DNA of 64,000 nt, taken from positions 89,739 to 153,738 of the forward strand of contig JAKVCA010000022.1 in assembly GCA_022448315.1 (NCBI GenBank), read 5' to 3'. A program made the position numbers and the translations under genes. Shown in pieces: positions 8,370 through 40,100 of the stretch. Below the pieces are notes generated by a model, which saw nothing but the letters and a program-made list of their open reading frames with translations, was not told where the DNA came from and did not search any database. Position 1 is the first letter of the stretch. Each line of letters starts with the position of its first letter. The stretch is from Pirellulaceae bacterium. Its GTDB lineage: Bacteria > Planctomycetota > Planctomycetia > Pirellulales > Pirellulaceae.

Positions 8370-8407
8370 TGGAGACTTGCTTGGGCCTTTAAGGAAGGAC
8401 CATGCAA

Positions 8408-8449
8408 AGAAAAAAGCCAGTCTCTGCTCGTTGACGCAGAGGCTGGCTT
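8408..8449 (-). terminator. Intrinsic terminator of the small basic protein gene, between clpB and 8511-8708
   Basis: A 12-bp stem (8416-8427 with 8436-8447, one G:U pair) has an 8-base loop. Read on the minus strand it is followed by a run of T (the A run at 8408-8415 on the plus strand), so it terminates the minus-strand gene ending at 8511. It lies between convergent genes. On the plus strand the hairpin has no T run, so it would act weakly, if at all, for clpB. Confidence 0.85.
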
Positions 8450-8510
8450 CTAGTTCTGAAGTCATTGGTCTGAAAAGGAATGGGCCGCCGAAAGGCCTGC
8501 CGAAGAGGGT

Positions 8511-8708: not shown

Positions 8709-8924
8709 TATCGCACCCAAAAGTATGTCTAAGTCGATTCAAGGAGTGAATGTGACAAAGGGAGGGTTCCGCTTTTGGCTCGTCCGCCCTGCCTCGCCGG
8801 CTAAATCTCCCTGAAAGGATCGTTTTTCGCGTCGGAAGTATGGAAATGTTAAGCGATCATGCCCTCGAGTTCAACCGCTAATTCCACGATCGCAAACCCT
8901 AAAACCCACCTGAAGGAACCACAT

Positions 8925-9806: not shown

Positions 9807-9991
9807 CGATGGATCGACTCCCTACGACAACAGAGAGATTCGTGAAGACGTTAAAAGATCAGACAGCGGGCAGAGCAGGGGACCCGGGAAGGTCACCGTT
9901 TGAGCCTGCCTCTCGTTACGAAGACGACCGTCATCCGAGAGGCGGATTGACGGAGAAGCGTTTCGGTAACGAACATTCCTAAAATGCACGA

Positions 9992-10849: not shown

Positions 10850-11212
10850 GGTCTCAACAATGAATGAGGGTGTACAGGTATTGCCCGGATCATGAGCGAC
10901 CTAAGTATGGTACTCGAACCCTCCCCAGTTTAGGAAGTGCTTTTCCGGCCCCAGTAGACTTTCACCCCCCAAATTCACCAAGCCCATACGTTTGGAGTTG
11001 CGTCGATCGGTAAAAATTGCGTCCGTAAAGCTGCCCCGAGAATGTCGGAAAAGCGATAGGATCTGGTAAGATGGCTCTGCCGACGTCGCTGGGGTCGATC
11101 TGGCCCTTAAAAAGCCTGGCGGCTGGCTTAAAAGCCCTGCTGCAAGATGGTACCGCCAGCCCCTGAGTTCAAGCCGCCCACACTGGTCATCAACCCTGGT
11201 ATCAAATCGCCC
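10850..11212. other. Intergenic region between divergent accD and the larA-like gene
   Basis: These 363 bases lie between two divergent genes. The larA-like frame is open upstream to a possible ATG at 11147, but that extension (Pro-rich) does not resemble the family. I see no RNA gene, repeat or clear promoter box here. Confidence 0.4.
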
Positions 11213-12511
11213 ATGAAGATCAAGCTTGAATACGGACGTCAAGGATTGGACGTCGAGCTTCCTGATAAAAACGTCGTCCAGACTTTGGCCTACCGAGAGG
11301 CTGACCCCCTTGCCGATCCCCAAGCCACACTTCGACAAGTTCTGGAATCCCCCAATGGCTCGCCTTCGTTGGGGGAACTCGCTCAAGGCAAGCAACAAGC
11401 CTGCATCCTGATCTGTGATGTGACTCGACCTGTCCCCAATCCGTTAATCCTTGGCGAAGTTCTCAAAGACCTGGAACGGGCTGGAATGACGCCGGATCAA
11501 ATCCTGATTCTGATTGCGACCGGACTCCACCGACCCAACGTAGGAGACGAGCTACGGGAAATGGTTGGGGACGAAATTTATGATCGCTATCGCATCGAGA
11601 ACCACGATGGTCAGGATATGGACGCTCATGTGCATTTGGGCGAAAGCCCAAACGGCGTGCCCATCTGGATCGATCGTCGATATGTCGAAGCGGACTTGAA
11701 AATCACAACCGGTCTGATTGAGCCACACTTCATGGCTGGATTCTCTGGAGGACGAAAGCTCATTTGCCCTGGCATCGCCGGAATTGACACCATCCGAGCT
11801 TGGCACAGCCCGAGGTTTTTGGAACACCCCAAAGCGGCATCCGGCTTTCTTGACGGCAATCCCGTACACTTCGAAAACACATGGATCGCAGAGCGAACAG
11901 GGTGCGACTTCATTGTCAACGTTGTCATCGACGCTCAACGAAGACCACTGAAGTTTGTGGCAGGGCATATGATCTCGGCCTTCGAGGAGGGAGTTGAATT
12001 CGTAAGTGACCTTGTCACCGACACCGTGCCCTACGAGGTTGACGTGGTGGTGACCAGCAGCGCGGGCTATCCTTTGGACACAACTTTTTATCAGAGTGTT
12101 AAAGGAATGGTTGGGGCCGCCGCCATTGTGAAACCCGGAGGGACGATCGTGATTGCCGCGAGCATGTCAGAGGGCATCGGCAGTCCAGAGTTTCAAGAGA
12201 TTTTTGACGACCATCCATCCCTCGATCAATTTTTGGATCACATCCTTAATCGGAATTATTTCAAAATGGACCAGTGGCAACTCGAAGAGCTGGCCAAGGC
12301 GCGAAAGAAAGCCCAGATCAAAGTGGTGACAGAGGGTCTCAAACCGGAAACGATCCAGAGGCTCTATGTGGATAGCAGCCCGACCGTCGAATCTGCGGTC
12401 GCCGAGTGCCTCAGCGAATACGGCTCGGAAGCATCGATTGCGGTCATCCCTAAAGGCCCGTATGTGATGGCCGCGGTAGCGCCTGATAATACCCCTGATT
12501 TAAAACCCTAG
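11213..12511 (+). CDS. larA: LarA-family nickel-pincer-dependent racemase/epimerase (DUF2088)
   Basis: LarA of Lactobacillus plantarum racemises lactate using a nickel-pincer nucleotide bound to a Lys. This 432-residue protein (start 11213, MKIKLEYG) has the whole set of family landmarks: DVTRP at 69-73, TGLHRP with H106, the PHFMAGFSGGRK block with H172 and K182, and H198 in TIRAWH. The spacings H-66-H-10-K-16-H are identical to H108, H174, K184 and H200 of the L. plantarum enzyme, so cofactor binding and catalysis should be intact. The natural substrate is uncertain because many homologues act on other 2-hydroxy acids. The cofactor genes larB, larC and larE are not in the window. The gene ends 1 base before a giant VWA membrane protein, suggesting co-transcription. 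Confidence 0.88.
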   Translation: MKIKLEYGRQGLDVELPDKNVVQTLAYREADPLADPQATLRQVLESPNGSPSLGELAQGKQQACILICDVTRPVPNPLILGEVLKDLERAGMTPDQILILIATGLHRPNVGDELREMVGDEIYDRYRIENHDGQDMDAHVHLGESPNGVPIWIDRRYVEADLKITTGLIEPHFMAGFSGGRKLICPGIAGIDTIRAWHSPRFLEHPKAASGFLDGNPVHFENTWIAERTGCDFIVNVVIDAQRRPLKFVAGHMISAFEEGVEFVSDLVTDTVPYEVDVVVTSSAGYPLDTTFYQSVKGMVGAAAIVKPGGTIVIAASMSEGIGSPEFQEIFDDHPSLDQFLDHILNRNYFKMDQWQLEELAKARKKAQIKVVTEGLKPETIQRLYVDSSPTVESAVAECLSEYGSEASIAVIPKGPYVMAAVAPDNTPDLKP

Positions 12512-12512
12512 G

Positions 12513-15500
12513 ATGAAGGCCTGGCGTCTGGAACGTCGGCGAAAATGGTTTTGCAGAATGTTTGGGAATTCAATCGCATTTGACCAACCCTGGTTTCTGC
12601 TCCTCATACTTCTGCTGCCCCTGTTTTGGGTGGCGAGCTACCGGTCCCTTTCGGGGTTAGGACAGTTTCGCCGTTTCTGCTCGTTGAGCCTTCGAACGCT
12701 TGTCGTCCTTCTCGTCATTCTGGCACTCGCAGAATTTCAGATGGTCCGAACCAGCGATCAACTCACGGTCCTGTTCGTTCTCGATCAGTCGGAAAGTATT
12801 CCACGCGACAAACGACAGTACATGCTGGACTATGTCGTCAAGGAAGTTGACGAACACCGAAAAACGGAAACCAGCGATCGGGCAGGGGTGATCGTTTTCG
12901 GCGGAGAGGCGAAAATTGAAATTCCGCCCATCGACATGTCCCTCCCATCGATCGGCCGGTTCGAGTCGGTCGTCGACCTGCACCCAGAAATCACCAGCCT
13001 CGAATCAGCACTGGAACTTGCGAAAGCTTCCTTTCCTGAAGATACAGCTCGCAGGCTTGTTATCGTGACCGATGGTAATGAAAACCTTGGAGACGCCAGT
13101 CGCGTCGCTCGCACCCTCGCTGAAGATGGAATCGGAATCGATGTCGTTCCTGTTCGACTTCCCAAGCACAATGAAATCAGCATCGACAAGGTGGTCGTCC
13201 CGTCGAACTTGAGGCAAGGCCAATCATTTGAAGCCAAGGTTGTCCTCCAGAATCAACGTGTGACTCCCGAAGATAATTCGACGACCCAAGGCACGCTTCG
13301 GCTGATTGAAAAGTCATCTGGCCAATCCAGAGTCATTGCCGAAGAGACGGTAAGCTTGCAACCGGGGACAAACGTCGTCGGCTTCAAACATCAAATCGAC
13401 CAGACCGCGATGCTGACTTACGAAGCGACCTTCATGCCGGAAGATGATGAAGCGGACTTCCGCACTCAGAACAATGAAAGTTCCGCCTACACTCACGTCC
13501 GTGGTAAAGGTCGCGTCCTGTTGATCGAAGATGGCGAGAACATCGGCGAATTCGACGAACTCGTCCGCAGACTTCGCCGGCAGAACATGGAAGTCAGCGT
13601 GATGAACTCGTTGTCACTCTTCTCATCCGCCGAGCAGCTTCTCGAGTTCGATTGTATCGTGCTTGCTAACCTGCCTCGTTCGAGCGGCGAACCGAACGAA
13701 GAAGGCGAATTTCAAGTCGAGAGTTTTTCCGACGCCCAGATCGAAATGCTCGTCAGCAATACGGAGGAGTTGGGCTCAGGCCTGGTCATGCTGGGAGGGA
13801 ACCGCGCCTTCGGGGTGGGCGGCTGGTCGAATACGCGACTCGAAGAAGCCATGCCTGTCGACTTCCAAGTGAAAAATGACCGAATCGAAGCGGTTGGCGC
13901 TCTGGCAATGGTCATGCACGCGACAGAAATGCCAGAAGGGAACTACTGGCAAAAAATCATCGGTTACGAAGCCATTCAGGCACTGGGTCCCATGGACTAC
14001 TGTGGTGTCGTGGTTTGGAATGATTTCGGCGGTGGTACGAAATGGCTCTGGGGACAGCAGCAAGGGGGAATGCTGCGGGTCGGACCGACAAAAAAAGCGA
14101 TGCTTTCTGCCGTTGGCAAAATGGTCCCGGGGGACATGCCAGATTTTGACAATTCCATGCAACGGGCACTGAATGGACTAGCGGGCGTCAAGGCATCCGT
14201 CAAACACATGATCATCATCAGTGATGGAGATCCGTCCGGTCCGGCGCCAAATCTACTGAGTCAGTACATTCAGCAGAACATTGTCATTTCTACGGTGGCC
14301 GTCGGAACTCACGGCCCACCCACCAAAACTCCCCTACAAAGAATCGCAACCGCTACTGGGGGCAAGTTTTACAACGTCACCAACCCGAGGGCACTGCCGA
14401 AGATTTTTCAACGCGAAGCCCGTAAAGTCGCGAAGCCCTTGATTGTGGAAAAACCCCAAATCAATGTCCTTCCTGTCGGGTCGGCCGCAGCGCATCCGAC
14501 GCTACAAGGTTTACCCATCAATGCGTTGCCGCCCATCCAAGGCTATGTGGCCACCACCATCAAGCCGAGCGGTTTGGTCGAACAGTTGCTCATCGCCTCC
14601 GAACCGCCGGATGCCGGTGAGAACTCAACAATCTTTGCAACCTGGCAATTCGGCCTGGGCCGGTCCACGGTCATCACGACAGATGCAGGCTATCGCTGGG
14701 CCGCTGGCTGGCAGCGTAGCGAATACTACGATCGCTTTTATGCTCAGGTGATCCGACATGCGATGCGACCCGTCAATGAATCGGCCAACTTTTCAGTCGC
14801 CAGCCAGATCCGAGACGGCCGAGTGGTCCTTACGGTAAACGCATTGACCAACGAGGATGAGTTTCTCAATAACCTGCCCATGTTAGCGCGGGGAATTTCG
14901 CCCGAGCTTGAAGGTTTTGATATCGATTTCCGCCAAGTCAGTCCTGGGCGGTACGAGGCCTCGTTTGATGCGACAGATTCAGGCAGTTACCTCTTTTCGA
15001 TCCTGCCGGGCGACGGCTACGAGCGACTGGCGGGAGGGATCAGCGTGCCGGTTTCCAGTGAGTTCATGGATCAGGCAACCAACTGGCCTCTACTGGAAAC
15101 ATTGACCTCATTCCCGCCCGTTGGTGGGCAACCGGGCGAAATCATCGACGGTGACGTGACCCCGGTCGAGTTCCAGAACATGCTGGCCAACCACGATACC
15201 TTTCGACATGATTTGGCGAAAAGCACGAGTATCCGGGACATCTGGCCATGGGTTCTTGTCCTTTGCGGAGCCCTCTTTTTCACCGATGTTTTCGTCCGGC
15301 GAGTTCTGGTTGCCCCCACCGAATGGATCGAGAAACTCTACCGACGCTTCAAACCCGCGACGGATCGTCAGCAAGAAGTTCGACAAAGTCGACTCGACCG
15401 ATTGAAAAACCAAAAAGTCGCACTGAAACGGGAGCAGGATCAGGCGACGCGACGATACACGGCCCCAGCGCCTCAGGAAGATGCATCGAGCATGAACGAT

Positions 15501-15674
15501 CTCGATCAGAACCTCGATTCCCCGTTACCCCAGAAACAACCGCGGCGGGAAACCAAAAAGCCGGAAATGGATTCCTCCACGCCTTCCATGTCTTACACTG
15601 AACGTCTGCTTCAGGCCAAAAAGCGGGCCGCCAGCGACAAGACGGATTCAAACGATACCAAAGGACAGGGATAG
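12513..15674 (+). CDS. Giant membrane-anchored VWA / glutamine-amidotransferase-like protein
   Basis: The 1053-residue protein has two N-terminal membrane helices (about residues 25-43 and 58-76), then a VWA domain (about 83-250) with a MIDAS-like DQSES. A beta-rich segment (about 220-330) resembles a CARDB/Ig-type domain. An amidotransferase-like fold follows (about 335-640), with the Gly-rich LVMLGGNRAFGVGGW and a second VWA-like strand (MIIISDGDPSG). After a long extracytoplasmic region there is a C-terminal helix (about 908-928) and a charged, Gln/Lys-rich cytoplasmic tail. No catalytic Cys-His pair is evident in the amidotransferase-like part. The start could instead be ATG 12558 (MFGNSIAFDQPW), which is closer to how such proteins usually begin. 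It stands 1 base after the larA-like gene and 230 bases before a MoxR ATPase. Probably part of a MoxR/VWA assembly machine; exact role unknown. Confidence 0.87.
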   Translation: MKAWRLERRRKWFCRMFGNSIAFDQPWFLLLILLLPLFWVASYRSLSGLGQFRRFCSLSLRTLVVLLVILALAEFQMVRTSDQLTVLFVLDQSESIPRDKRQYMLDYVVKEVDEHRKTETSDRAGVIVFGGEAKIEIPPIDMSLPSIGRFESVVDLHPEITSLESALELAKASFPEDTARRLVIVTDGNENLGDASRVARTLAEDGIGIDVVPVRLPKHNEISIDKVVVPSNLRQGQSFEAKVVLQNQRVTPEDNSTTQGTLRLIEKSSGQSRVIAEETVSLQPGTNVVGFKHQIDQTAMLTYEATFMPEDDEADFRTQNNESSAYTHVRGKGRVLLIEDGENIGEFDELVRRLRRQNMEVSVMNSLSLFSSAEQLLEFDCIVLANLPRSSGEPNEEGEFQVESFSDAQIEMLVSNTEELGSGLVMLGGNRAFGVGGWSNTRLEEAMPVDFQVKNDRIEAVGALAMVMHATEMPEGNYWQKIIGYEAIQALGPMDYCGVVVWNDFGGGTKWLWGQQQGGMLRVGPTKKAMLSAVGKMVPGDMPDFDNSMQRALNGLAGVKASVKHMIIISDGDPSGPAPNLLSQYIQQNIVISTVAVGTHGPPTKTPLQRIATATGGKFYNVTNPRALPKIFQREARKVAKPLIVEKPQINVLPVGSAAAHPTLQGLPINALPPIQGYVATTIKPSGLVEQLLIASEPPDAGENSTIFATWQFGLGRSTVITTDAGYRWAAGWQRSEYYDRFYAQVIRHAMRPVNESANFSVASQIRDGRVVLTVNALTNEDEFLNNLPMLARGISPELEGFDIDFRQVSPGRYEASFDATDSGSYLFSILPGDGYERLAGGISVPVSSEFMDQATNWPLLETLTSFPPVGGQPGEIIDGDVTPVEFQNMLANHDTFRHDLAKSTSIRDIWPWVLVLCGALFFTDVFVRRVLVAPTEWIEKLYRRFKPATDRQQEVRQSRLDRLKNQKVALKREQDQATRRYTAPAPQEDASSMNDLDQNLDSPLPQKQPRRETKKPEMDSSTPSMSYTERLLQAKKRAASDKTDSNDTKGQG

Positions 15675-15904
15675 CAGGACCGAGGTCAAGTGAGACTCGA
15701 TCAAGACCAAACTCATTGAAGTCGTAAGGGAAATACGCCCCAGTCAAGACTTATTCCATTGAAGAAATATCCATTGAAGAAATACCTGTGCGTCCAAAAC
15801 TCGAAACACCGCGATGAAGCACCCGGCAGTGAAAGTAACCGACCCTCAAGGCTCCGGACGGATCATCAACAGAGACCCCTCGGAAACACCATCAAGGAAC
15901 CGTC

Positions 15905-16930
15905 ATGAGTGAAACAGAAGAACTACGACAAAAGGCCGAAAAGTTCCGAGAGCGGTATGCAGCCGTTCGTGAACAAATTGGCCGCGTCATTGTGGGCCAT
16001 GAAGAAATCGTTCAGGGGGTGCTAACCGCCATTTTGGTCGGCGGCCACTGCCTGCTCGAAGGTGCACCGGGACTGGGGAAAACCATGCTGGTTCGCACCT
16101 TAGCAGATGCCCTCGATCTCGATTTCAATCGAATTCAGTTCACCCCTGACCTGATGCCCGCTGACATTCTTGGTACCAACATGATCGTCGAGGATCCCGA
16201 CGGGAAACGACAATTTGAGTTTCAGAAAGGACCCATTTTTACTCAGATTTGTCTTGCGGATGAAATCAACCGCGCGACCCCGAAAACCCAGTCGGCCATG
16301 CTGGAAACCATGCAGGAGGGTACCGTCACGGTCGCAGGCCAACGTTATGAACTCGACAAACCGTTTTTTGTACTGGCAACCCAGAACCCAATTGAACAGG
16401 AGGGAACCTATCCGCTTCCCGAAGCACAACTCGACCGATTTTTATTCAAATTGATCGTCGGTTACTCCGGAAGATCCGAACTCTCAACGATCGTCGACCG
16501 AACCACCAAGGGCTTTCAGGACCAGGCTGAGAAAGTCATGAATGGAGAAGAAATTCTGGGGTGGCAACAACTGGTTCGGGAAGTCATGATTGCTCCCCAC
16601 GTGCAGGACTACCTCGTCCGACTCACGCTGGCCACGCATCCTGAGGGTCCATTTGCCGCAGAAGCGACGAACCAGTATCTCCGCTGGGGGAGCAGCCCAC
16701 GTGGAGCGCAGACCCTCGCTCTCGCCAGCAAAGTTCGGGCGCTGCTCGACGGCCGATTCAATGTGAGTTTTGAAGATCTCAGGCGTGTTTACCTGCCGAC
16801 GCTTCGCCATCGCGTCATCTTGAATTTTGAAGCGCAAGCCGAAGGGATGACGACCGATGACGTCCTGCTCGAGTTGCTGGAAAAAGTTCCTGAGCAGGCG
16901 GATGACATCCCGGTTGCCAGCACGGCTTGA
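15905..16930 (+). CDS. MoxR-family AAA+ ATPase
   Basis: The 341-residue protein is a standard MoxR ATPase: helix-2-insert AAA+ domain with Walker A EGAPGLGKTM, Walker B CLADEINRATPKTQSAMLE, sensor 1 FVLATQNPIEQEGTYPLPEAQLDRF with its arginine finger, and a lid domain after about residue 230. MoxR proteins act as chaperone-like ATPases for VWA-domain partners and often help insert metals or assemble complexes. Here they are surrounded by such partners: a giant VWA protein upstream, and DUF58 and BatA-type genes 62 and 952 bases downstream on the same strand. The start ATG follows a aggaaccgtc ribosome-site-like stretch. Confidence 0.95.
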   Translation: MSETEELRQKAEKFRERYAAVREQIGRVIVGHEEIVQGVLTAILVGGHCLLEGAPGLGKTMLVRTLADALDLDFNRIQFTPDLMPADILGTNMIVEDPDGKRQFEFQKGPIFTQICLADEINRATPKTQSAMLETMQEGTVTVAGQRYELDKPFFVLATQNPIEQEGTYPLPEAQLDRFLFKLIVGYSGRSELSTIVDRTTKGFQDQAEKVMNGEEILGWQQLVREVMIAPHVQDYLVRLTLATHPEGPFAAEATNQYLRWGSSPRGAQTLALASKVRALLDGRFNVSFEDLRRVYLPTLRHRVILNFEAQAEGMTTDDVLLELLEKVPEQADDIPVASTA

Positions 16931-16992
16931 CCGCCACGACCTCTCACGTTGTTGGCCTTCCTACTCTGCCTCGATCCGTTTGAAGTTTGACG

Positions 16993-17886
16993 ATGCCACG
17001 CACACCCTCACAAGACTTGCTCAGCCCGCAACTCCTCGCTCAACTCGAGCGACTGGAGCTTGTCACGCGCAAGGTCTTTCGTGGCAGAATGAAGGGTGAG
17101 CGTCGCAGCCAACGAAAAGGTCAAAGCGTTGAGTTCGCCGATTTCCGCAACTACGTCCCCGGTGACGATCTCCGGTTTATTGACTGGAATTTATACGCGC
17201 GTTTGGATCGCCTGTTCCTGAAACTCTTCCTCGAAGAGGAGGACCTGCATTTTTACGCCCTTGTGGATTGCAGTCGCTCGATGGATTTTGGTGAACCCTC
17301 AAAACTTACCTTCGCCAAACAACTCGCAGCTTCACTCGGCTACATCGGCCTGTGTCGCGCCGACCGAGTCAAAGTTGAATCGCTCGCATCAGGCCTTCGC
17401 TCGGCAGCCCCTTCATTGCGAGGCAAGTCGAGTCTCCGTCGTCTCATCGATCACGTCGACCAATTTACTCCTGGAGAGGATCAAGGGCTTTTGGAAGGTG
17501 TTCGCCAGTTCTGCCTTCGGAATCCCGGTCAGGGAATCCTCGTGTTGATCACCGACCTGATGGACAAGTCGGGTTACGAATCCGCACTGCGACTGCTGGT
17601 AAGCCAGAGAATCGATGTGTATGTGATTCACGTCCTTTCTCAAGAGGAAATCAACCCTGAGGTCCAAGGCGATTTACGCCTTGTTGATTCGGAAGATCAG
17701 GATCAGGCGGAAGTCACCATCAGCCGACCATTGCTGCAGAAATACGAACGCACACTTCGAGCTTTCGTCGGGAGTGCCCGGGATTTCTGCGCGAAACGTG
17801 GAATCACGTACCTGCAAACCACCAGCCATCAACCTATCGATCAACTCGTTGCCCATTACCTTCGGCAAAGAGGCTTGGTGCGATGA
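16993..17886 (+). CDS. DUF58 domain protein (VWA-like, MoxR partner)
   Basis: A soluble 297-residue protein starting at ATG 16993 (MPRTPSQDLL); a TTG two codons upstream is also in frame. It has the DUF58 landmark block: GRRKGQSVEFADFRNYVPGDD-like sequence at about residues 40-60, DWNLYARLDRLFLKLF at 65-80, then a degenerate VWA fold with VDCSRSM (a MIDAS-like DxSxS motif) at about 92-98 and LVLITDLMD near 180. DUF58 proteins are regularly encoded directly after moxR and are thought to be its partners. The stop overlaps the next gene by 4 bases (ATGA), indicating translational coupling with the BatA-type membrane protein. Confidence 0.93.
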   Translation: MPRTPSQDLLSPQLLAQLERLELVTRKVFRGRMKGERRSQRKGQSVEFADFRNYVPGDDLRFIDWNLYARLDRLFLKLFLEEEDLHFYALVDCSRSMDFGEPSKLTFAKQLAASLGYIGLCRADRVKVESLASGLRSAAPSLRGKSSLRRLIDHVDQFTPGEDQGLLEGVRQFCLRNPGQGILVLITDLMDKSGYESALRLLVSQRIDVYVIHVLSQEEINPEVQGDLRLVDSEDQDQAEVTISRPLLQKYERTLRAFVGSARDFCAKRGITYLQTTSHQPIDQLVAHYLRQRGLVR

Positions 17887-27784: not shown

Positions 27785-30174
<2,390 letters not shown>

Positions 30175-30180
30175 GCACCG

Positions 30181-31992
30181 ATGTCAGTGGTATCGACACA
30201 CAAAGATCTCCTCCGTTTCCCAAAGTCACGATCGGCGCCGCGTGCGTGCCGAAAATATGCGGGACTTGTCGGAATCGTGCTGTGCTTAACCTCTTTTGGC
30301 TGCCAGCCAGATACCTCCCCTCAAGACGGCACATTGCCCGCCGTTGAAACGACCGACGGTTCTGAAACTCAGCCGGCCATCGAAAGCCCGGCAGGCTGGG
30401 ACTGGGAATCGCGCGGGATGCGAGCCGAGATCAGCAATTCGAGTTGGCCTCATCAGTTTCGAAGTGGCGGCGAGGATGAGCAGACGACCATTCTTGAATC
30501 GCTGGGGGGGGGCGTCGGCGTGATTGACTTCGACCTCGATGGCTTGGCCGATCTATTCTTCACCGGCGGAGGTCGACTGGCCAACCAGAGCGTTCAAGGA
30601 ATTCCCAGCGAGTTGTTTCACAATCAAGGAGAATGGAATTTTACTCCAGTCGGAGAAGTTGCCTCGGCCTCAAAGTCTGACTTCTACAGTCATGGAGCTT
30701 ACATCGCGGATTATGACGAAGATGGTTTTCCAGATATCTTGATCACAGGCTATGGAGGGCTGCAATTACTCCGTAATCAAGGTGACGGTTCGTTCCTTAA
30801 AGTGCAGGCGAACCTTTCAGGACTCACGGATTCCCAGTGGAGTTCTGCGGCCGCCTGGAGCGACCTCAATCAGGATGGCTGGCTCGACTTGTACGTGGGT
30901 CACTATGTTGACTGGTCCTTCGAGAACCACCCCTTCTGCCCATCCGCCAAGGATCCCAAGGTCAGAGAAATTTGCTCTCCGCGTCAGTTCCAATCGCTCA
31001 ACGACACCGTTTACCTCTCAAACGGCGATGGAACATTCCGCGAGGCGACCGAGTATTGCAACCTCAAACCTGGGGGCAAATGTCTGGGAGTGGTTTCTCT
31101 CGATATTGATCGGGATGGCGATGCCGACCTCTACGTTGCCAATGATACAACGCACAATTTCCTCTACCTTAATGACGGCGAAGGTCGCTTCGATGAAGTT
31201 GGCGAGCTCTCAGGAGTGGCGCTTGATGATCACGGCATCCCCAATGGAAGCATGGGAGTTGATGCGGGTGACTATAACCAGGACGGGCAGTTCGATTTAT
31301 GGGTGGCCAACTATGAGAGTGAAGCTTTTGCTTTGTACCGCCAATCGAGTGATGCCCTATTCACCTTCGTCAGTCACGTTCAAGGAATCCGGGCGATCGA
31401 AAGCGAATTTGTTGGATTCGGCACGCTGTTTTGCGACGCAGATCTGGACGGAGACGAAGATCTCTTTGTCAGCAATGGGCACGTGATTTTGCACCCCACG
31501 CTTGCCCCCCGAAAGCAACTACCGCTGGTTCTCGAAAATCTTTCCAACCAATTCAAGCGAATTCGATGGCCAGAAGATCATGTGCTTGGCCAACCTGCGG
31601 AAGGCCGAGGACTCGCTCAAGTGGATCTTGATCAGGACGGTGCCCCAGACCTGGTCTTTGCACCCGTCGACGAATCGCCAAAAGTTCTCAAGAATAATGT
31701 CGGGAGGCAGGGAACTCCACTCAGCATTCGGTTGATTGGCACCCAGGGTAACCGAACGGCAGTGGGTGCTGTGGTCGAAGTAAAAACGGATCGATCCACG
31801 CAGGTCAGGGCATGCAAAGGGGGAGGAAGTTATCTGTCCACCTCGGAAAATCGGTTGTTTTTCGGACTGCCCGACGGTGAATCACTACGAGAGATCAGGG
31901 TCCACTGGAGCCTCGGTCAGGAAACCGTGCTCACGCCCCCCGAAAACCCCGTCAGCGTGACCATTGTGGAACCGGACGTTAACTCCAACTAA
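30181..31992 (+). CDS. CRTAC1-type lipoprotein: FG-GAP propeller plus ASPIC/UnbV domain
   Basis: The 603-residue protein begins with a basic stretch and a helix ending in the lipobox LTSFGC (about residues 36-41), predicting a lipoprotein outside the cytoplasm. Seven calcium-binding FG-GAP/VCBS repeats follow, seen as DFDLDGLADL, DYDEDGFPDI, DLNQDGWLDLYVG, DIDRDGDADLYVAND, DYNQDGQFDLWVAN, DADLDGDEDLFVSN and DLDQDGAPDLVFA. They build a beta-propeller. The C-terminal part (about 515-595) is the ASPIC/UnbV domain with RTAVGAVVEV and STSENRLFFGLPDG. CRTAC1-family proteins are abundant in planctomycetes but functionally unassigned; ligand or cell contact is likely. It heads a three-gene run with a TPR protein and a second FG-GAP lipoprotein. 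Confidence 0.93.
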   Translation: MSVVSTHKDLLRFPKSRSAPRACRKYAGLVGIVLCLTSFGCQPDTSPQDGTLPAVETTDGSETQPAIESPAGWDWESRGMRAEISNSSWPHQFRSGGEDEQTTILESLGGGVGVIDFDLDGLADLFFTGGGRLANQSVQGIPSELFHNQGEWNFTPVGEVASASKSDFYSHGAYIADYDEDGFPDILITGYGGLQLLRNQGDGSFLKVQANLSGLTDSQWSSAAAWSDLNQDGWLDLYVGHYVDWSFENHPFCPSAKDPKVREICSPRQFQSLNDTVYLSNGDGTFREATEYCNLKPGGKCLGVVSLDIDRDGDADLYVANDTTHNFLYLNDGEGRFDEVGELSGVALDDHGIPNGSMGVDAGDYNQDGQFDLWVANYESEAFALYRQSSDALFTFVSHVQGIRAIESEFVGFGTLFCDADLDGDEDLFVSNGHVILHPTLAPRKQLPLVLENLSNQFKRIRWPEDHVLGQPAEGRGLAQVDLDQDGAPDLVFAPVDESPKVLKNNVGRQGTPLSIRLIGTQGNRTAVGAVVEVKTDRSTQVRACKGGGSYLSTSENRLFFGLPDGESLREIRVHWSLGQETVLTPPENPVSVTIVEPDVNSN

Positions 31993-32098
31993 ATCAAAGC
32001 CTACCCTGATAATGATGTTTGATTCCGGCCTAAAAGTGGCCAAAATAGTAGAAGAGCCTTAGTTTTAAGTTCACTTCTATCAATTCGGGACCGTTAAT

Positions 32099-33760
32099 TT
32101 GTCCATATTCACGGAATCGGCGACTGAGGATTCAAACGAGCCCGAAAAAACGCGGTGGTGGGCCGTCGTTCTTGCATTAGTCGTCACAGCAGTGGCTTCG
32201 TATGGCATCATGCGTTGGTATCAATACCAGATTCCTCTCGGCTATTTTCGAGAGGGAGTCGCGGGGATACGCTCAGGGAACTGGGATGTTGTCCAACTGC
32301 AAACCACGGCCCTCACGGGCAACCCTGAATTCAGTTCCCACCGAGACTATCTCGAAGCGGCCTTCGAAATCTACAGGGGCGAATTGGACAAGGCCGAAGG
32401 CCTGTTGGAAACCGCAGGGAACGATCCCGCTGTCCAACCTTACGCTCTGGTTGCCGAAGGTGTAATTGCACTGCAACGAGGTGATCTGGAAAAAGCGAAA
32501 ACCAAAGCACAGGCAGCCCTTGAACTGGACGCCGAACTGCCGGAAGCGAATGAACTCAAACGTGGTCTCGAGAACATTGAGCAACCCATGACGCGAGTCA
32601 CTCGAGCCCTGCAAGGACTCGATGCCGGTGACCTCAAGACGGTCGAAAGCGAAATCAAAGCCCTGATGGAGACACCCATTGGCGATCCCTACGCCAAGTT
32701 CATCGCAGGTGTCGCCCTGATGCGGGAAAATAATTACGCCGAAGCGTTGAACGCCTTCGGCGGCGCGGTCGGTAACCCACAACTTGCGGCTGAAACGTTG
32801 ACGCTGTCGGGTGAAGCGTTGGTTTACCTGAACCAACGAGCCGAGGCCGAAAGCCTTTTTCTTCAGGCACTTTCCATCGACGACCAGCAGGTGGACTCGC
32901 ACCGCTGGCTGGCATCACTCTACTACGATATGGGCGCACACGATCACGCCGCCGCTCATCTGCGGCGGATATCCGAACTGGCCCCCGATGACTTTCGGCC
33001 CTACCGACAACTTGGGTTGATGAACAAAGACTTTGAGGACTTTGAGACGGCAGTTTCGAATTACGACAAAGCCCTCGAGAGAGACCCGTCGGTCCTTGTT
33101 CGTGCCGAGATCCTGCTTGAGAAGTCTCAGTGTCTGGCAAGACTTCGAAAATATGCAGAAGCTCGAGAAACATTAGCTTCTCCACTGCTCCAAGAGGTTC
33201 AGGAACCGGTCTTTGTCTCCATGATGAAAGGCACGTTGGCTGAGTGCCTTCTCGATGAAGGAAAACCAGCGGAGGCCAGCCAGCTGATTTCTGAGATCCT
33301 CGAAGTAGATCCGGCAAACCTGGACGCTTTGGTGCTTCGAGGAACACTCTTACAACTCAACAACAATTTTGCCGAAGCGGTCGAAGTCCTGACTCAAGCG
33401 GTGAATTCCGACCCCTACGATTACACAGCAAGATTCAAGCTAGCGCAGGTTTATCAGGCTCAAGGGAACTCGGAACTCGCCAAGGCAAGTCTCGAACGTG
33501 CCGAAGAACTGAAGGCATTGAGGGAGCAATTCTCAAGACTCCACCAGGAAGCCGCAGCGGACCTCACGAATGTCGACGCTCGAAATGCGATGGGGGAAAC
33601 GGCATTACAGCTGGGGCGGCCCGATCTTGCTGCCGTCTGGTTTCAGTCAGTCCTCAACATTGACCCTGAGAATGAACAGGCCAAAACAAGACTTCAGGCC
33701 GTGGTTGAGCAACTGACCGGCGTTCCAGCGACACCCCAGCAAGTCCCTCCTCAGCCTTAA
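32099..33760 (+). CDS. Membrane-anchored TPR repeat protein
   Basis: The 553-residue protein has an N-terminal membrane helix (about residues 20-40, WWAVVLALVVTAVASYGIM) and then, probably outside the cytoplasm, about a dozen TPR units from residue 50 to the end, for example DPSVLVRAEILLEKSQCLARLRKYAEARETL and LDALVLRGTLLQLNNNFAEAVEVLTQAV. The start is a TTG at 32099, behind a GGGA at 8 bases. No in-frame ATG exists between it and an upstream stop, and the first internal Met falls after the membrane helix. Its place between two FG-GAP lipoproteins on the same strand suggests a scaffold for them. The sequence ends in a Pro/Gln-rich tail. Confidence 0.9.
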   Translation: MSIFTESATEDSNEPEKTRWWAVVLALVVTAVASYGIMRWYQYQIPLGYFREGVAGIRSGNWDVVQLQTTALTGNPEFSSHRDYLEAAFEIYRGELDKAEGLLETAGNDPAVQPYALVAEGVIALQRGDLEKAKTKAQAALELDAELPEANELKRGLENIEQPMTRVTRALQGLDAGDLKTVESEIKALMETPIGDPYAKFIAGVALMRENNYAEALNAFGGAVGNPQLAAETLTLSGEALVYLNQRAEAESLFLQALSIDDQQVDSHRWLASLYYDMGAHDHAAAHLRRISELAPDDFRPYRQLGLMNKDFEDFETAVSNYDKALERDPSVLVRAEILLEKSQCLARLRKYAEARETLASPLLQEVQEPVFVSMMKGTLAECLLDEGKPAEASQLISEILEVDPANLDALVLRGTLLQLNNNFAEAVEVLTQAVNSDPYDYTARFKLAQVYQAQGNSELAKASLERAEELKALREQFSRLHQEAAADLTNVDARNAMGETALQLGRPDLAAVWFQSVLNIDPENEQAKTRLQAVVEQLTGVPATPQQVPPQP

Positions 33761-33852
33761 GACACCGTCAACATCGGGCTGGCAGGCGTTACGACCTGTG
33801 GTCACCAAACCCGCGGAGTGACGGGAATCATCAGCGAAGGGAATTCAGGCAA

Positions 33853-35481
33853 GTGGCAAGGCAATTTCATTTTGGCGGGTTGTTGAATGCCAGAGCCTTC
33901 CGTGACTGCTGGTTCATTTTATGCGTTGCCCTTACCGGGTGCGGATCGCAAAACTCGCCTGAGAATTCTGAACTTGCAGAGGTGACAGGGACGACTGTCG
34001 TAACTCAACCAAAAAAAGTGTTGAGTGCGGAGAAGCGGGAGCAGATCATCGAGTTCTGCTCGGATTGTCATGCGTTACCCGATCCGGGAAGCTTCCCGAA
34101 ATCGTCTTGGCATGAGGAAGTGGAACGCGGTTTCAACTTCTATTTTGATGCCGAAGAGCAGAGTCTTACTCCACCGGTATTCAACGAGGTGGTCGAGTTT
34201 TTCCAATCGCAGGCACCTGAAGCCATTCCCGTTTCCAAAATTGAACTCCCGCTTGATCGTGCTCAAACACCATTTCAGGTGCCGGAGATTGAACGCCGTC
34301 CCATCACTCCCGAAAATAGACTACCGGCGATCGCGGGCATGAGCTTGGAACCGATCGGCCCCAACGGTATCTCAATTCCTGTCTTCTGCGATATGAGGCA
34401 TGGCACCATTCACTGGCTTTACCCCGAAGACAACGGAAACTGTGCGTCGGAGTCCATTGGCCAATTCAAATACCCTTCGCGGGCTCACGCGTGCGATCTG
34501 GATGGCGATGGCATACAAGATTTGATCGTTGCAGAACTGGGCAGTGAAGATCCGGAAGATCACGAGCGAGGTGGTGTCTACTGGATGCGGGGTACAGGAG
34601 AGCGTGGACAGTTCGAAGTTCGTCCAATTTTGGAAAACATCGGACGCGTTGCCGATGTCCGTTCCGGGGACATGGACGGAGATGGCGATCTGGATCTCAT
34701 CGTGGGAGAATTTGGCTATATCAAAACGGGTGGCATCTGGATGTTGACCAACAAGGGTCCAGCCGACCCCGTCCGATCCGGCTCGCTCGAGTTTACGGCC
34801 GAAGAGATCGACTCGCGACACGGGACCATCCACACTCCCATCGTCGACTTTGACGGTGATGGAGATCTCGATTTCCTTGCCCTGGTGAGTCAGGCATATG
34901 AAGCGGTTGACCTCTTTATCAACGACGGCAACGGAGAGTTCACACGTCGAAATCTCTACGAAGCCGAGGATCCCGCATTCGGCTCCAGTGGCATTGAAGT
35001 CGATGACATTGACGGCGACGGGGATTACGACGTTCTTTACGTCAACGGAGATACGTTCGACAGCTACTTTGTAAAACCCTATCACGGAATTTGCTGGCTT
35101 GAAAATCAGGGTGAGGAGTCGTTCATCTCCCACAAACTGACCGGGATGCCGGGCGCGCAGTACGCCACACTCGGTGATGCAGATGGCGACGGCGATCTGG
35201 ATGTTGTGGGGGTTTCCCTGATGCCCGAGTTTCTAAGGACGGCTCACCGGGAATTACGCTTCGCATCCGTCATCTATCTGGAAAACGATGGAAACCAGAA
35301 TTTTTCAGGCTCAGCGCTTGAATTCGATCAATGTGATCATGCCTCGTGCGTCCTGTTCGACGCGGATCAGGATGGAGACCTCGATCTGGTGGTGAGCAAT
35401 TTCCTCGCAGAGACCAACGAGACCACAGATCCGGTCACCATATGGAAAAACAAGGCGAGCACCAAACCAATATCAGAATGA
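33853..35481 (+). CDS. FG-GAP propeller lipoprotein with an N-terminal CxxCH heme motif
   Basis: The 542-residue protein starts with GTG (no in-frame ATG before the propeller) and has a signal sequence ending in the lipobox ALTGC (about residues 26-30). Residues 69-73 read CSDCH, a c-type heme-binding motif, set in EFCSDCHALPDPGSFPKSSW. FG-GAP repeats with calcium loops follow: DLDGDGIQDL, DMDGDGDLDL, DFDGDGDLDF, DIDGDGDYDV, DADGDGDLDV and DADQDGDLDLVVSN. A propeller lipoprotein with one heme could take part in electron transfer, but no distal Met ligand is obvious. It is the third gene of a run with the CRTAC1 lipoprotein and TPR protein and stops 24 bases before the converging VWA gene. Confidence 0.9.
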   Translation: MARQFHFGGLLNARAFRDCWFILCVALTGCGSQNSPENSELAEVTGTTVVTQPKKVLSAEKREQIIEFCSDCHALPDPGSFPKSSWHEEVERGFNFYFDAEEQSLTPPVFNEVVEFFQSQAPEAIPVSKIELPLDRAQTPFQVPEIERRPITPENRLPAIAGMSLEPIGPNGISIPVFCDMRHGTIHWLYPEDNGNCASESIGQFKYPSRAHACDLDGDGIQDLIVAELGSEDPEDHERGGVYWMRGTGERGQFEVRPILENIGRVADVRSGDMDGDGDLDLIVGEFGYIKTGGIWMLTNKGPADPVRSGSLEFTAEEIDSRHGTIHTPIVDFDGDGDLDFLALVSQAYEAVDLFINDGNGEFTRRNLYEAEDPAFGSSGIEVDDIDGDGDYDVLYVNGDTFDSYFVKPYHGICWLENQGEESFISHKLTGMPGAQYATLGDADGDGDLDVVGVSLMPEFLRTAHRELRFASVIYLENDGNQNFSGSALEFDQCDHASCVLFDADQDGDLDLVVSNFLAETNETTDPVTIWKNKASTKPISE

Positions 35482-35505
35482 CAAACAGGGGCTGGCTTGC
35501 GAGGC

Positions 35506-37209
35506 CTACTGGATGATGTCGCGTCGATTCGACTGGTAATCCCAGACGACGAAGCGGTCGAGGTCATTGCCCGACGTGAAGAAAACGCGACCGCGAGTGG
35601 ACTCCGCGAGTCGGTAGGCGAATCGAATGTCTTCCTCCGTCTGAGACCAACTGGGAACCAGAAAAATATTGATGGTGATCCCTTCTCGGGCACACAACAT
35701 GCCCTCTCGCATCGTGGCTTCCTCCGTCAGCGGATGAGGCGGATAAAGCAAATAGAGCATTTGCTCTTCGAAGTGTGCCGTGGGCAGACCGTCGGTAATC
35801 AATACAATCTGTCGATTGGGAGTATCCTGGACGGCCAACTGCTGGCGTGCCAACTGGAGTCCGTGTTGGACGTTGGTGAAATGAGGGTGAATCAGCGACT
35901 CGACATTTTCTTCGTCGCTCATGTCGTATCGCAGTTGAACCACTGGGTCATGGATGGTAACCGGTTTAGGCATCGCCTCGATGACTTCCCCCGGTTGCCG
36001 CAATTTTCCGAAGGTGTACATCTCAACAAATCCGAGGAAATCTCCCGGGTATTCTCGTCGTATGAGACCATCGAGTGCGAGTGCCATCCGCTTGACGTTG
36101 ACGTACTGACCGTCGTAACGCATCGAACCACTCATGTCCATCACGACCATGGTCGCGCACTTGGGGTGATTACGCGTCCGATGAACCTCGATATCTTCGG
36201 TCTTGAGATGCAGGCCACCTCCCTGGTGGCTCTGGCGAATCATGGCATTGACCAGTGATTGAGTCGTATCCATGTGCGTCAGGGAGTCGCCAAACTCATA
36301 GGGCTTGGTCTGCTGGATCTCGACGTCACCCTCACCCTCGATAGGCCCTTCGTGCCGTCCTGTTCGAGAGCTTTGGAGATCGCTGAAAATCCTCTCCAGC
36401 AAACGCCCCTGAAAAATTCGGTAGGCCTGTGGGGTTAACTGAAACGCGCCTTGCTGATGGGCAAGCCCCTGCTGCTCGGCCATTTCCCGGATGTAATTTT
36501 GGATCGTCTCCTGCATCTCCCGCAGTGAATCGACATCCCCCGGTTCGGCGTACTGCGAGAGGGCATCAAGGTCCACAATGCCGATCTGCGCGGTCTCACG
36601 AGCCTCTTCAAGTTGTTTGAGTAGCTCGTCAATCTTCTCCAGTTCGGCCTTGATCTCCAGTGCCAGTGGCACCGTCATGGACTCGTGCCCCTTAAACTCG
36701 TACTTCGACGCCATCTCATCGATCTTGAATCGGTTGGAAAGTCCGTTGATTAATCGGAGCACATGCTGAGCGAAAGGGTCCACATCGTCGCCGATTGCAT
36801 ACCAGATCCGCTCCAAGTCATAAATTTGCTGCTGAAAGATGGCTTTCCTGTACCGTTCCGCCAAGCGGGTCGGCGGAGGCTCACGACCGATCTCCGACCG
36901 AAATTCGCTTATCGCCAATTTTTGAACCGACGATACTTCGTACTTTTCCAAAATCTTCCGTTTGCGATCCTCAAGCATGGCGATCAAGAGATCAATGCTC
37001 GGGCCCAGTCCTTGAAATTGACTCGGATCAAGACGGATGGCTCTGGCCATCTCCTCTTCGGTCAACTGACGCATTGACCCGTAGGCCAACATATGATCGA
37101 AGGCCGACGAGACCATGTCTGGGGGAGGTTGAGTTGGACTGGGAAATTCTTTGGGGTCATATCTCTGATAAGTGTGGACGATCCCGCCAAGGGAAGGTTT
37201 CTTGGCCAT
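35506..37209 (-). CDS. VWA-domain protein, CoxE/ViaA-like partner of the upstream AAA ATPase
   Basis: The 567-residue protein is soluble: no signal or membrane helix. The N-terminal two thirds are helical and charged (about residues 60-340), with segments such as LKQLEEARETAQIG. The C-terminal third is a VWA domain with MIDAS DMSGSMRYDG near residue 355 and the strands FVEMYTFGKL and IVLITDGLPTAHF; the conserved T and D of MIDAS are present. This layout, a helical N-terminus followed by VWA at the C-terminus, resembles CoxE and ViaA, which pair with MoxR-branch ATPases. The AAA gene starts 4 bases upstream on the same strand. The two probably act as a pair, like RavA-ViaA, on an unknown substrate. 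Confidence 0.9.
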   Translation of the reverse strand: MAKKPSLGGIVHTYQRYDPKEFPSPTQPPPDMVSSAFDHMLAYGSMRQLTEEEMARAIRLDPSQFQGLGPSIDLLIAMLEDRKRKILEKYEVSSVQKLAISEFRSEIGREPPPTRLAERYRKAIFQQQIYDLERIWYAIGDDVDPFAQHVLRLINGLSNRFKIDEMASKYEFKGHESMTVPLALEIKAELEKIDELLKQLEEARETAQIGIVDLDALSQYAEPGDVDSLREMQETIQNYIREMAEQQGLAHQQGAFQLTPQAYRIFQGRLLERIFSDLQSSRTGRHEGPIEGEGDVEIQQTKPYEFGDSLTHMDTTQSLVNAMIRQSHQGGGLHLKTEDIEVHRTRNHPKCATMVVMDMSGSMRYDGQYVNVKRMALALDGLIRREYPGDFLGFVEMYTFGKLRQPGEVIEAMPKPVTIHDPVVQLRYDMSDEENVESLIHPHFTNVQHGLQLARQQLAVQDTPNRQIVLITDGLPTAHFEEQMLYLLYPPHPLTEEATMREGMLCAREGITINIFLVPSWSQTEEDIRFAYRLAESTRGRVFFTSGNDLDRFVVWDYQSNRRDIIQ

Positions 37210-37213
37210 GAAA

Positions 37214-38641
37214 TTATTCCCACGTGTAAGTCACTCGACCGTGGTGCTGCGATCTTGAGATTCGGTCGAGCGAATAAAGTCCCGCAAGGACAAATTCGAC
37301 ACAACTCGCCCGTGTCGCTTCGTCTTCTCCGGCATTCACCTCGAATGCCTTTTCCCATGCTTGAGGCACGCGTGACAGACGCTCCGCGTAGGCCGAAGAA
37401 GGCAGCATATCTCCGACTTCGACGCTGACTCCCTTAGAAAAAATCTCGCTGATTTCATCCAAACCATGACGTTCCACGTACTCCTGAAACACGGTTTGAA
37501 TCGACTCGGCGATCAGACTGTCCAAAACTTGGCGTTCCGACATTTGGTGCGTGCCCATCAGGTCCAGTTCCAGTTTGCCGAGGGCCGAGGTGTACAGATG
37601 TCCCAGGTCACTGATACGAGGAACCGCCGGGTTCTCTCCGAGAGTAATTCCTCGTTGTCTCGCACTGGAAACCATCGTGCGAAAGTTTGCGATTGTCAAT
37701 CGAGCACTCACTCCCGACTGCTGATCGACGTACTTCGACTTGCGGGCTTCGATCGAAATCTGCTCGATGATTTCCAACATGAAGTATGGAATTTTCACGG
37801 GGTGCGTCCCCTCGAGATCCAAGCCTGACTCACTCAGCATGATCTCAATGCCCAAGTCACGCTCTTTGGGATAATGAGTCTGGACCAACGCCCCAATGCG
37901 ATCCTTGAGTTGCGGGATCACCTTGCCGCTTCGGTTGTAGGTCGCAGGATTCGCGCTGAACAGGACGAGCAGATCCAGATCAAATTTCACCGGGTAACCA
38001 CGGATTTGGACATCTCGCTCTTCGAGGATATTGAACAGTCCGACCTGAACAAGTTCATCGAGCTCAGGCAGTTCGTTCATCGCAAAGATGCCACGGTGCA
38101 TTCTTGGGATCAGACCGAAATGCAATGCCTCTTCGGTTGACATGCTGACACCACTGACAAGCTTTGACGGGTCGATCTCGCCAATCACATCCGCAAACTT
38201 GGTACCCGGTGCCAGACGCTCGGCATATCGCTCTTCACGGGGCCACCAGGCAATCGGCGTCTCACTCGGGTCATGGGTATTCAGGAAATCCTGAGCGACC
38301 CGACTGAGCGGCGCGAAAGGGTCTTCATGAAAGGGAGTGCCCGGAATATCAAGGTAAGGAATGAATGGGTCCAGAAACCTCACCAGAGACCGCATCAGTC
38401 GACTTTTCGCCTGCCCCTTCTCTCCGAGGAAAAGAAGATCATGCCCTGCCAGCAATGCGATGCTGATCTCCGGGATGACCGTGTCCTGATAGCCAACGAT
38501 CCCGGGGAATAATGTCTCGTCCTCTGACAGGGCAAGTGCGAGATTCGCTTGAATCTCCTGCTTCACTGAGCGGGAATGCCATCCACTCTCGCGCAACTCT
38601 TGCAGGTTCTTAGGAAGCGATTCGCGATCTATTTGGGTCAT
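37214..38641 (-). CDS. AAA ATPase of the magnesium-chelatase/MoxR branch
   Basis: The 475-residue protein (start ATG 38641, [11 protein letters not shown]; a second ATG at 38653 is also open) has Walker A GEKGQAKS near residue 72, an insertion helix region, and Walker [11 protein letters not shown] near 186, where the usual Asp is Asn but the catalytic Glu is kept. Sensor 1 is [22 protein letters not shown], containing the arginine finger. A C-terminal helical lid follows from about 330. The long [20 protein letters not shown] stretch is typical of ATPases related to ChlI that pair with VWA proteins. It overlaps the J-like gene upstream by 4 bases (ATGA), and the VWA gene starts 4 bases after its stop. 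All three look translationally coupled. Confidence 0.9.
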
Positions 38642-40011
38642 GGTGTTCCCCATTCAAACCAGGTGGCGCCAACCAGCACTCCTCGATTCCCTTTGCCCGA
38701 GCGATCAATGATGGGCTTTTGAGACCTGTTCGAATTCACTCGCTGCGTCTCCAGATCGGGCAACAGGCAGGTAAACTCATCGGGAAGCCAATTTGGCAGG
38801 GGTGTGAAACGATCTTCGTATCTGGCGACCGATGAGACACGCATGCCCCTAAATTTCCCTAACAGTCGCCCCTCGGGTACCAAAGCCGGTGAGTTCCCTA
38901 GCCAAAGATCAGCATCTGCAGGGATTATCCCGATCAACTTCGATTCAGGGACGTCGGTTATCCGACGCCCATTCCAAAAAATTGTTACCTTCGTCGACCG
39001 ACTGACAAGACACACATGATCAAACTCGTTGTCGGATTCACTCAAATCGGCCATGGCTGCGAGCTGGGTCGTTTGTCCACTCGACTTCAAAATCAGGTCC
39101 TCTTCCCCTGCTGCATCCGCCTGAATTCCGAGAATCCAGCCCGCATCACTCCCAGCTTGGCGTGGCTTGTCGTCTGTCAAACCAAGGATCGGTTGAAACC
39201 CGGCACTCGCTTGTCGTTGAACCCAGAATTCGAGCGTCCATTCACCGCGCCAGTCAAGCCAGTCACTCGCTCGACTCCAAATCACATATTGAGACTTCCC
39301 AACAGAAACTCCATACCGGGACCAGCGAGCAAGTCCCGTGGTGGCGGGCGCCGGTACTTCCATGCGAAACTCGATTTGCCCCTCCGCAGGACCTGAAGAA
39401 CCGCCTTCTTGGAAGGCGATTCGGTAGCCAATCCAGAGGAGAATGCCGTGAGCAGGAAGAAACATGAGCAGGACAAGCAGGCTCATCTGCCAACCTCGTC
39501 CTCGTCGCCGTTTTTTTCCAAAACTGGAAGTCTGATTTGCACCTGACATCAACGAACGGCTGGGCACGGAGATCGCTTCATCCGAAATCGCATCCTCCAG
39601 ACCAGGCGATGCTTTTGGATCGGCCTGCGCTTCTGTGTCAGTTTGGTCTTTCATCAGGTGAGGCGGCAATACCGAACGGGGCTTGGGTTGCACGGGCGAC
39701 TCGAAGTCGTCGATAGGCCGCCCCCGCCCGCTGGCTCTCTGGCGGAGCAACTCGTCATAAGCCTCACGCTCAGCCTTGACCAGCAGCACATCCAGTGCTT
39801 GATCAATTTCCTGAATGAGTCGCTGCGCGACTTCACCGTGCGGACCATGAACTTGCCGATTCAGATAGTGCAGACGCAATTGAGACGCATGCTCGATCAC
39901 ATCAAGATCATTTTCAAAGGTTGACAACCCGAGAAGGCGATAATGGTGGGGAGGTTGGACGTCAGGAGGTATACCAAGCCAGAGGTAATAGGGATCAAAC
40001 GGGGCTGTCAT
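38638..40011 (-). CDS. Membrane protein with N-terminal J-like domain and C-terminal LamG-like domain
   Basis: A 457-residue protein with three parts. Residues about 1-92 form a J-like domain ([26 protein letters not shown]... ending AYDELLR) of a kind recurrent in planctomycetes, without the HPD motif needed to stimulate Hsp70. A charged linker leads to one membrane helix (about 174-200) after a basic KKRRRGRG. The extracytoplasmic part (about 215-445) resembles a laminin-G/concanavalin-type lectin domain ([31 protein letters not shown]). The ATG at 40011 was chosen; a farther ATG at 40056 would add MILHFSLIF. Its stop overlaps the AAA gene start by 4 bases. It could link a cytoplasmic AAA/VWA machine with surface sugars or proteins. 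Family not named. Confidence 0.82.
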
Positions 40012-40100
40012 CGATGCATATCTCAGGTGAAATATCAGGCTGAAGTGCAATATCACAGTTCGTGACTCGCCCCGGGAATCCTCTCAACGCGGGCCGGTAA

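Follow-up and report, generated by a model that had tools for sequence, protein, structure and literature searches.

A conserved association of CRTAC1-type, TPR, and heme-propeller genes in a planctomycete, with a DHC-like cytochrome module and a predicted ligand change at the heme

Mouse CRTAC1 (PDB 9etn) carries an FG-GAP propeller followed by a C-terminal UnbV domain, and to our knowledge no heme partner of vertebrate CRTAC1 is known. CRTAC1-type proteins are numerous in planctomycetes, and no published role for them was found in the searchable literature, as the initial annotation of the DNA treated here had also held; this statement is qualified by the accessible text of PMC12758564 (2025), where a CRTAC1-annotated gene stands beside heme-protein genes in hydrazine-synthase-like clusters of clades I-III. 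A second described system is DHC, a diheme cytochrome c (PDB 3u99 and 2fw5) and the partner of the Sphaeroides heme protein (SHP). According to the accessible text of PMC2909971, the sixth ligand of DHC is H51, located 17 residues N-terminal of the aromatic pair Y69-L70 in the C-terminal helix, and SHP illustrates that a c-type heme with an unusual sixth ligand can bind oxygen and NO. Here, we describe a stretch of 64,000 nucleotides from a Pirellulaceae bacterium (GenBank assembly GCA_022448315.1, contig JAKVCA010000022.1; hereafter, the window), in which positions 30181-35481 hold three plus-strand open reading frames. They encode an FG-GAP/UnbV protein, a TPR protein, and a further FG-GAP protein that carries a single CxxCH motif. 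Known parts are brought together here in an association that is real and conserved, and the heme site is unusual, whereas the function of the locus is a proposal: we give about half of our confidence to the idea that the products of the three genes form a heme module anchored to the membrane outside the cytoplasm, with a heme that binds or turns over a small ligand. The searchable literature, including the accessible text of PMC12758564 and PMC3174227, yielded no account of this module (most subscription papers lie outside this scope).

The open reading frames and the Pfam matches agree with the initial annotation that the three same-strand neighbors are a CRTAC1-type protein, a membrane-anchored TPR protein, and a propeller lipoprotein with a single CxxCH. 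Protein 1 (CRTAC; 30181..31992, plus strand, ATG start, 603 aa) has a secretion signal, an FG-GAP propeller (FG-GAP_3, E=7.7e-45), and a C-terminal UnbV/ASPIC domain (UnbV_ASPIC, 8.6e-14), both matches being over the cut-off. Its propeller contains seven DxDxDG-type motifs, which are putative calcium sites judged by motif alone, and its nearest solved relative in a PDB sequence search is mouse CRTAC1 (9etn, E=1.3e-12), which has the same arrangement of propeller and UnbV domain. By its propeller with calcium motifs and its UnbV/ASPIC domain, protein 1 belongs to the CRTAC1/UnbV-ASPIC family. After a gap of 106 nt follows protein 2 (32099..33760, plus strand, TTG start, 553 aa), which is matched by many TPR families (Pfam, best 1.1e-32) and has a hydrophobic stretch at residues 20-38, the predicted N-terminal transmembrane anchor. 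We read it as a membrane anchor with a TPR array, for which the role of scaffold is a proposal. The start of the anchor, RWWAV, recurs in one relative (G245, at L193), and a matching anchor is found in another (G017, at L073); G and L numbers are our labels for the genomes of relatives and for fetched loci, the latter also including regions of the organism's own genome. A further gap of 92 nt leads to protein 3 (33853..35481, plus strand, GTG start, 542 aa), a lipoprotein with a good lipobox (LTGC), a DHC-like cytochrome module, and then an FG-GAP propeller (FG-GAP_3, 1.1e-30) with six DxDxDG-type calcium motifs; its gene has several candidate start codons. At E<=0.01, Pfam detects no UnbV/ASPIC domain in protein 3, which shares only the propeller with the CRTAC1 family. 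NCBIfam returned no match for protein 1 or protein 3, and only sub-cut-off TPR matches for protein 2. The extracytoplasmic location proposed at the outset is borne out by the LTGC lipobox of protein 3, the weak, off-consensus lipobox of protein 1 (SFGC), and the N-terminal anchor of protein 2.

The cytochrome module spans residues 57-121 of protein 3 (34021..34215, plus strand) and comprises the heme c attachment motif CSDCH (residues 69-73; 34057..34071, plus strand), Trp86, Phe94, Tyr97, and a C-terminal helix with the pair Phe116-Phe117. C69, C72, H73, and Trp86 are invariant in the alignments of 15/15 close and 19/19 wider homologues, which upholds the heme site named by the initial annotation; Tyr97 is also invariant in the 15 close homologues. 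The wider set comes from Planctomycetota, Bacteroidota, Pseudomonadota, Verrucomicrobiota, and Myxococcota. Pfam finds DHC ("Dihaem cytochrome c") below threshold, with 18.8 bits against a cut-off of 22.2, and a profile of the heme module run against the PDB lists DHC diheme cytochrome c first (3u99, E=5.8e-8; 2fw5, 1.9e-4). AlphaFold2 models the full protein with a pLDDT of 84.3 and the module alone, as three helices, with 95.3. VIA-align places the module model at Z 6.2 to both 3u99 and 2fwt (3u99, rmsd 2.7 over 54 residues), and the top three Foldseek matches of the isolated module are two DHCs and a sulfite dehydrogenase chain, which we take to be the cytochrome subunit. Protein 3 is not matched by PSCyt1 (Planctomycete cytochrome C, PF07635) at E<=0.01; the same model does match a gene of a relative (L044:16772-19222). 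The genome also encodes a cytochrome c assembly protein above the cut-off. The heme site of protein 3 is, judged by its conservation, genuine, and the module is related to domain 1 of DHC, with which it shares the predicted fold, the CxxCH, the Trp helix, and the C-terminal aromatic helix. In contrast to DHC, the 542-aa translation has a single CxxCH and is not a two-heme protein; its one heme is fused to a propeller, and the sixth-ligand His described for DHC (H51, in the accessible text of PMC2909971) is missing. A heme-less sister group of the heme-propeller also exists (L053, L054, and L097-L100; support 100/100), and each of its genes lies directly 5' of a related gene, of which the one scanned, that of L053, encodes a TPR protein.

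Counting from the invariant Trp86, position W+8 is Phe94 and W+11 is Tyr97 in the window protein. Outside the planctomycete clade, Met occupies W+7 or W+8 in all 13 heme-bearing homologues, and this conservation leads us to infer that Met is their sixth ligand. The clade itself, which we call "Pirellulaceae-type" after those relatives that carry names in the tree, is represented by 23 distinct sequences, one of them from the window. Of these, 20 have Phe or Tyr at W+8 and 22 have Tyr at W+11; the deviating residues are Gln, Arg, and Ile at W+8 and Leu at W+11. In the tree, the inside group makes up one side of a branch with support 93/96, and proteins with Met occur to either side of it, so that one loss of Met is the simplest reading. 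The position of DHC H51 maps to Phe98 by its spacing from Phe116-Phe117 and to Phe96 from the Trp side, with Tyr97 between them; residues 96-98 are Phe-Tyr-Phe, and the His ligand of DHC is absent. An aromatic residue followed by Tyr takes the place of the Met seen in the wider family, and the heme of protein 3 would accordingly be either open (five-coordinate) or ligated by Tyr97. This ligand swap is the strongest new, testable statement of the analysis. The same residues bear on a plain electron relay, in which a DHC-like low-spin cytochrome with an unrecognized sixth ligand would shuttle between the membrane and a soluble partner. The relation of the module to DHC and the TPR-cytochrome c proteins that adjoin the heme gene in some relatives would suit a relay, whereas the window protein keeps neither the His of DHC nor the Met of the outside homologues (Phe94 stands in its place), and we consider this explanation rather improbable. 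The heme-propellers of Bacteroidota and other groups (for example, L109, L110, and L111) have the full architecture in common with protein 3, aligned over its length; they differ in that the outside-clade proteins keep the Met and that no TPR neighbor was recognized at their loci.

The most likely mechanism, again with a proposed function, is a heme module outside the cytoplasm that is organized by TPR. The scaffold would be the TPR protein, fixed through its N-terminal membrane helix, and it would present the CRTAC1-type calcium propeller with its UnbV domain together with the lipid-anchored propeller and its one covalent heme c, and the three proteins would be in mutual contact. The heme may exchange electrons with other periplasmic c-type cytochromes, because TPR-cytochrome fusions and multiheme proteins are present at related loci. 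Beyond electron relay, a five-coordinate or Tyr-ligated heme may bind or turn over a small ligand beside whatever is bound by the propellers.

The propellers themselves suggest another use. Among solved structures, the propeller of protein 3 best matches aldos-2-ulose dehydratase (Z 31) and LGI1 (29); mouse CRTAC1 follows at a lower score (9etn; Z 27.7, rmsd 3.1, 366 residues), with integrins further down, and these matches are evidence of fold, not of ligand. Protein 1 is similar in sequence to a fungal lectin as well as to mouse CRTAC1. An adhesive or polymer-binding surface complex, as suggested by the initial annotation, could draw on these similarities in fold (to mouse CRTAC1, the alpha heads of integrins, and aldos-2-ulose dehydratase) and on the kinship of the CRTAC sequence just mentioned. 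In such a complex, the two calcium propellers would attach to a cell or an extracellular polymer, with the TPR protein as their anchor, and the heme would be secondary. However, none of the aligned heme-bearing homologues departs from the CxxCH, and genes for cytochromes turn up repeatedly at related loci, which argues that the heme is not incidental, an argument qualified in turn by the heme-less sister group. We hold such a surface complex to be unlikely, though deserving of some weight. Compared with mouse CRTAC1, the window proteins are predicted to be membrane-associated, and protein 1 is encoded beside a TPR protein and a cytochrome-bearing propeller.

The association of these genes was surveyed in 241 genomes. 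The places of the heme gene are the matches listed (~150), 133 of which entered the count. Of the ~18 listed rows excluded, most were heme-less or fragments; two, G035:C1:4667562 and G217:C159, reach the heme part, and their genomes have no CRTAC-subfamily match, which leaves the count of genomes with both genes unaffected. Six further rows without a heme part were removed, including the pairs G253:C69 and G076:C15, which lowered the close pairs from 26 to 24. Among the matches listed, the heme gene lies <=6 kb from the CRTAC subfamily in 24 of the 39 genomes that have both, in 12 genera, against ~0.22 pairs expected by chance, a figure based on rounded genome sizes that ignores kinship between species. 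CRTAC and TPR are the tightest pair: TPRb, the type to which protein 2 belongs (TPRa and TPRb are the author's labels, assigned by best phmmer match), lies <=2 kb from CRTAC at 36 of 51 places, always on the same strand, in 27 genomes of 11 genera. The two are also fused in a 974-aa protein, confirmed by Pfam. A similar picture emerges from the first 60 relatives, in the regions round the heme gene and round the CRTAC-subfamily genes, with the reservation that gene calls there are longest open reading frames, the starts and gaps of which are rough. A TPR and/or CRTAC gene directly adjoins the heme-propeller gene at 11 of 16 heme-bearing loci outside the window, and 17 of 23 CRTAC-subfamily loci have a directly adjoining TPR gene, which is upstream in 14. 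In addition, a TPR + cytochrome c protein adjoins the heme gene at L040, L043, and L050 (the last by phmmer only), and at L102, where the heme-propeller is present in two copies, the second copy has such a gene at its side. The gene association is therefore real and conserved across genera, and the functional linkage suggested by the initial annotation gains support from proximity kept in 12 genera and from the CRTAC-TPR fusion.

The conservation predicted for the triplet holds for proximity and fails for exact order, since CRTAC-TPR-heme was found only in the window and G016 among the matches listed, and the heme gene is elsewhere first, last, or convergent. The order is heme-TPR-CRTAC-TPR in genera g3 and g6 (the extra TPR gene is seen in G002 and G005); CRTAC-TPR faces the heme gene in G105 and G247; the heme gene faces CRTAC in G008, G060, G111, G142, G129, G144, and G065; and it lies directly 5' of CRTAC in G135 and G145. 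The separate upstream TPR of relatives (TPRa) was sought in the organism's own genome with the G002 protein, which gave two weak matches, one being the window TPR itself. Outside planctomycetes, the neighbors of the heme gene are mixed (halogenase, Cu monooxygenase C-domain, glucoamylase, M48 peptidase, pirin, asparaginase, symporter, and phosphatase), and a CRTAC-type gene directly upstream of the heme gene, overlapping it, was seen only at the Verrucomicrobiota locus L120.

Several observations weigh against the proposed heme module. Variable order and strand argue against one fixed operon; 15 of the 39 genomes, some of them fragmented assemblies, do not have the heme and CRTAC genes close together; and five of the 16 heme loci (L039, L042, L049, L052, and L055) have no recognized adjoining TPR or CRTAC gene, one large neighbor at L049 being unscanned. 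G017 and G245, the relatives with the TPR most like that of the window, have no heme-propeller at E<=1e-60 among the matches listed, and their TPR and CRTAC genes are on separate contigs. Within the clade, Met is found at W+7 (L044) and W+10 (L041 and L044), and His at W+10 (L055). The Foldseek E-values of the isolated module are weak (2.2 and up), and the AlphaFold2 model contains no heme. Finally, proximity is not contact. The variable order, the 15 genomes with the genes apart, and the large numbers of CRTAC and TPR proteins in these genomes would also suit an absence of joint function, with abundant propeller and TPR genes brought together through descent or chance. Against this stand the 24 close pairs, far above the chance expectation, and their differing arrangements; varied arrangements across 12 genera make the simple inheritance of one operon an inadequate explanation, and we regard an absence of joint function as the least probable of the readings.

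The TPR_CcmH_CycH family bears on yet another alternative, in which the TPR protein and the propellers would chaperone periplasmic multiheme cytochromes, a role comparable to that of CcmI/CycH-type TPR proteins, or the heme would be a sensor. Some TPR proteins encoded upstream in relatives (L038, L048, and L194) match this family over the cut-off, and multiheme genes are found near other CRTAC loci, whereas protein 2 reaches only 28.8 bits against a cut-off of 42, alongside generic TPR matches, and Pfam found no cytochrome assembly gene among the eight genes scanned at the window locus. A role as assembly factor or sensor seems highly improbable. In relatives, the loci L038, L075, L089, and L096 encode proteins with seven or eight CxxCH in the vicinity of CRTAC or TPR genes. 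The organism's own genome has seven UnbV matches, five of which are accounted for by the window and contigs C34 and C45; the remaining loci, on C40 and C43, have no such neighbor. On C34, two CRTAC genes flank a 658-aa lipoprotein with seven CxxCH and TPR, with TPR genes at both ends; the one-strand order is TPR, CRTAC, the 658-aa gene, a 355-aa gene with a type IV pilin-like start, CRTAC, and TPR (L186, C34:252000-271900, positions 6377-17131). On C45, a 1236-aa FG-GAP protein with a weak UnbV, a small open reading frame, a 1006-aa protein with five CxxCH, and CRTAC stand in a row (L187, 5431-14943). A hydrazine synthase origin is not claimed for the 1006-aa and 1236-aa proteins; the PDB sequence search lists none, and no hydrazine synthase model was searched in this genome. 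Fusions of TPR with seven to eight CxxCH are also encoded, with no adjoining CRTAC, at L191:5747-8338 (C41) and L188:5630-8173 (C43), and at L190:5970-8528 (C40) a CRTAC-like gene is apparently split across two frames (638 and 206 aa).

On its 5' side, CRTAC closes a tight run of genes: a cupin gene and ligA (NAD-dependent DNA ligase by Pfam; 28174..30174, plus strand) overlap by 4 nt, and ligA ends 6 nt 5' of the CRTAC start. The triplet is therefore not clearly a unit of its own and may be the 3' part of a longer transcript. The ligA-CRTAC junction is also found in G017 (L072) and G245 (L192). A consensus scan returned no plus-strand promoter-like site, and counts of promoters and terminators were not above those in shuffled sequences and hence are uninformative. 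On the 3' side, outside the claimed module, a VWA-domain protein and a MoxR/Mg-chelatase-like ATPase form a minus-strand pair (35506..38653) convergent with the heme gene. The same pair faces the TPR orthologue in G017 (L073), with the heme gene absent between them, so the flank is shared and the heme gene is not. Next to this pair, at positions 38638-40056 of the window, is the gene for a protein that combines a LamG-like domain with a transmembrane segment. Pfam found no multiheme protein among the eight genes at 27785-40056, a scan that used no hydrazine synthase model. Compared with the hydrazine-synthase-like clusters, no such gene was recognized among these eight, and the heme of protein 3 belongs to a DHC-like module.

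A bolder version of the proposed heme module, to which we attach a low probability, is that this locus of Pirellulaceae-type planctomycetes encodes an extracytoplasmic heme enzyme, or a gas-binding complex, of a kind not described before. Its DHC-like cytochrome would have lost the Met once in favor of an aromatic residue and a near-invariant Tyr, been mounted on an FG-GAP propeller, and been organized by TPR and CRTAC1 proteins, in a genome that also has parallel CRTAC-TPR-multiheme clusters. If true, bacterial heme complexes, among them the hydrazine-synthase-like ones, would use CRTAC1 as a recurring subunit. For the expected sixth-ligand site of the heme, the change across the clade makes a specific prediction that can be tested. 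If CRTAC1-type proteins partner extracytoplasmic heme proteins on TPR scaffolds, a large orphan family would gain a testable function, and this would fit the recent report of CRTAC1 genes within hydrazine-synthase-like clusters (accessible text of PMC12758564).

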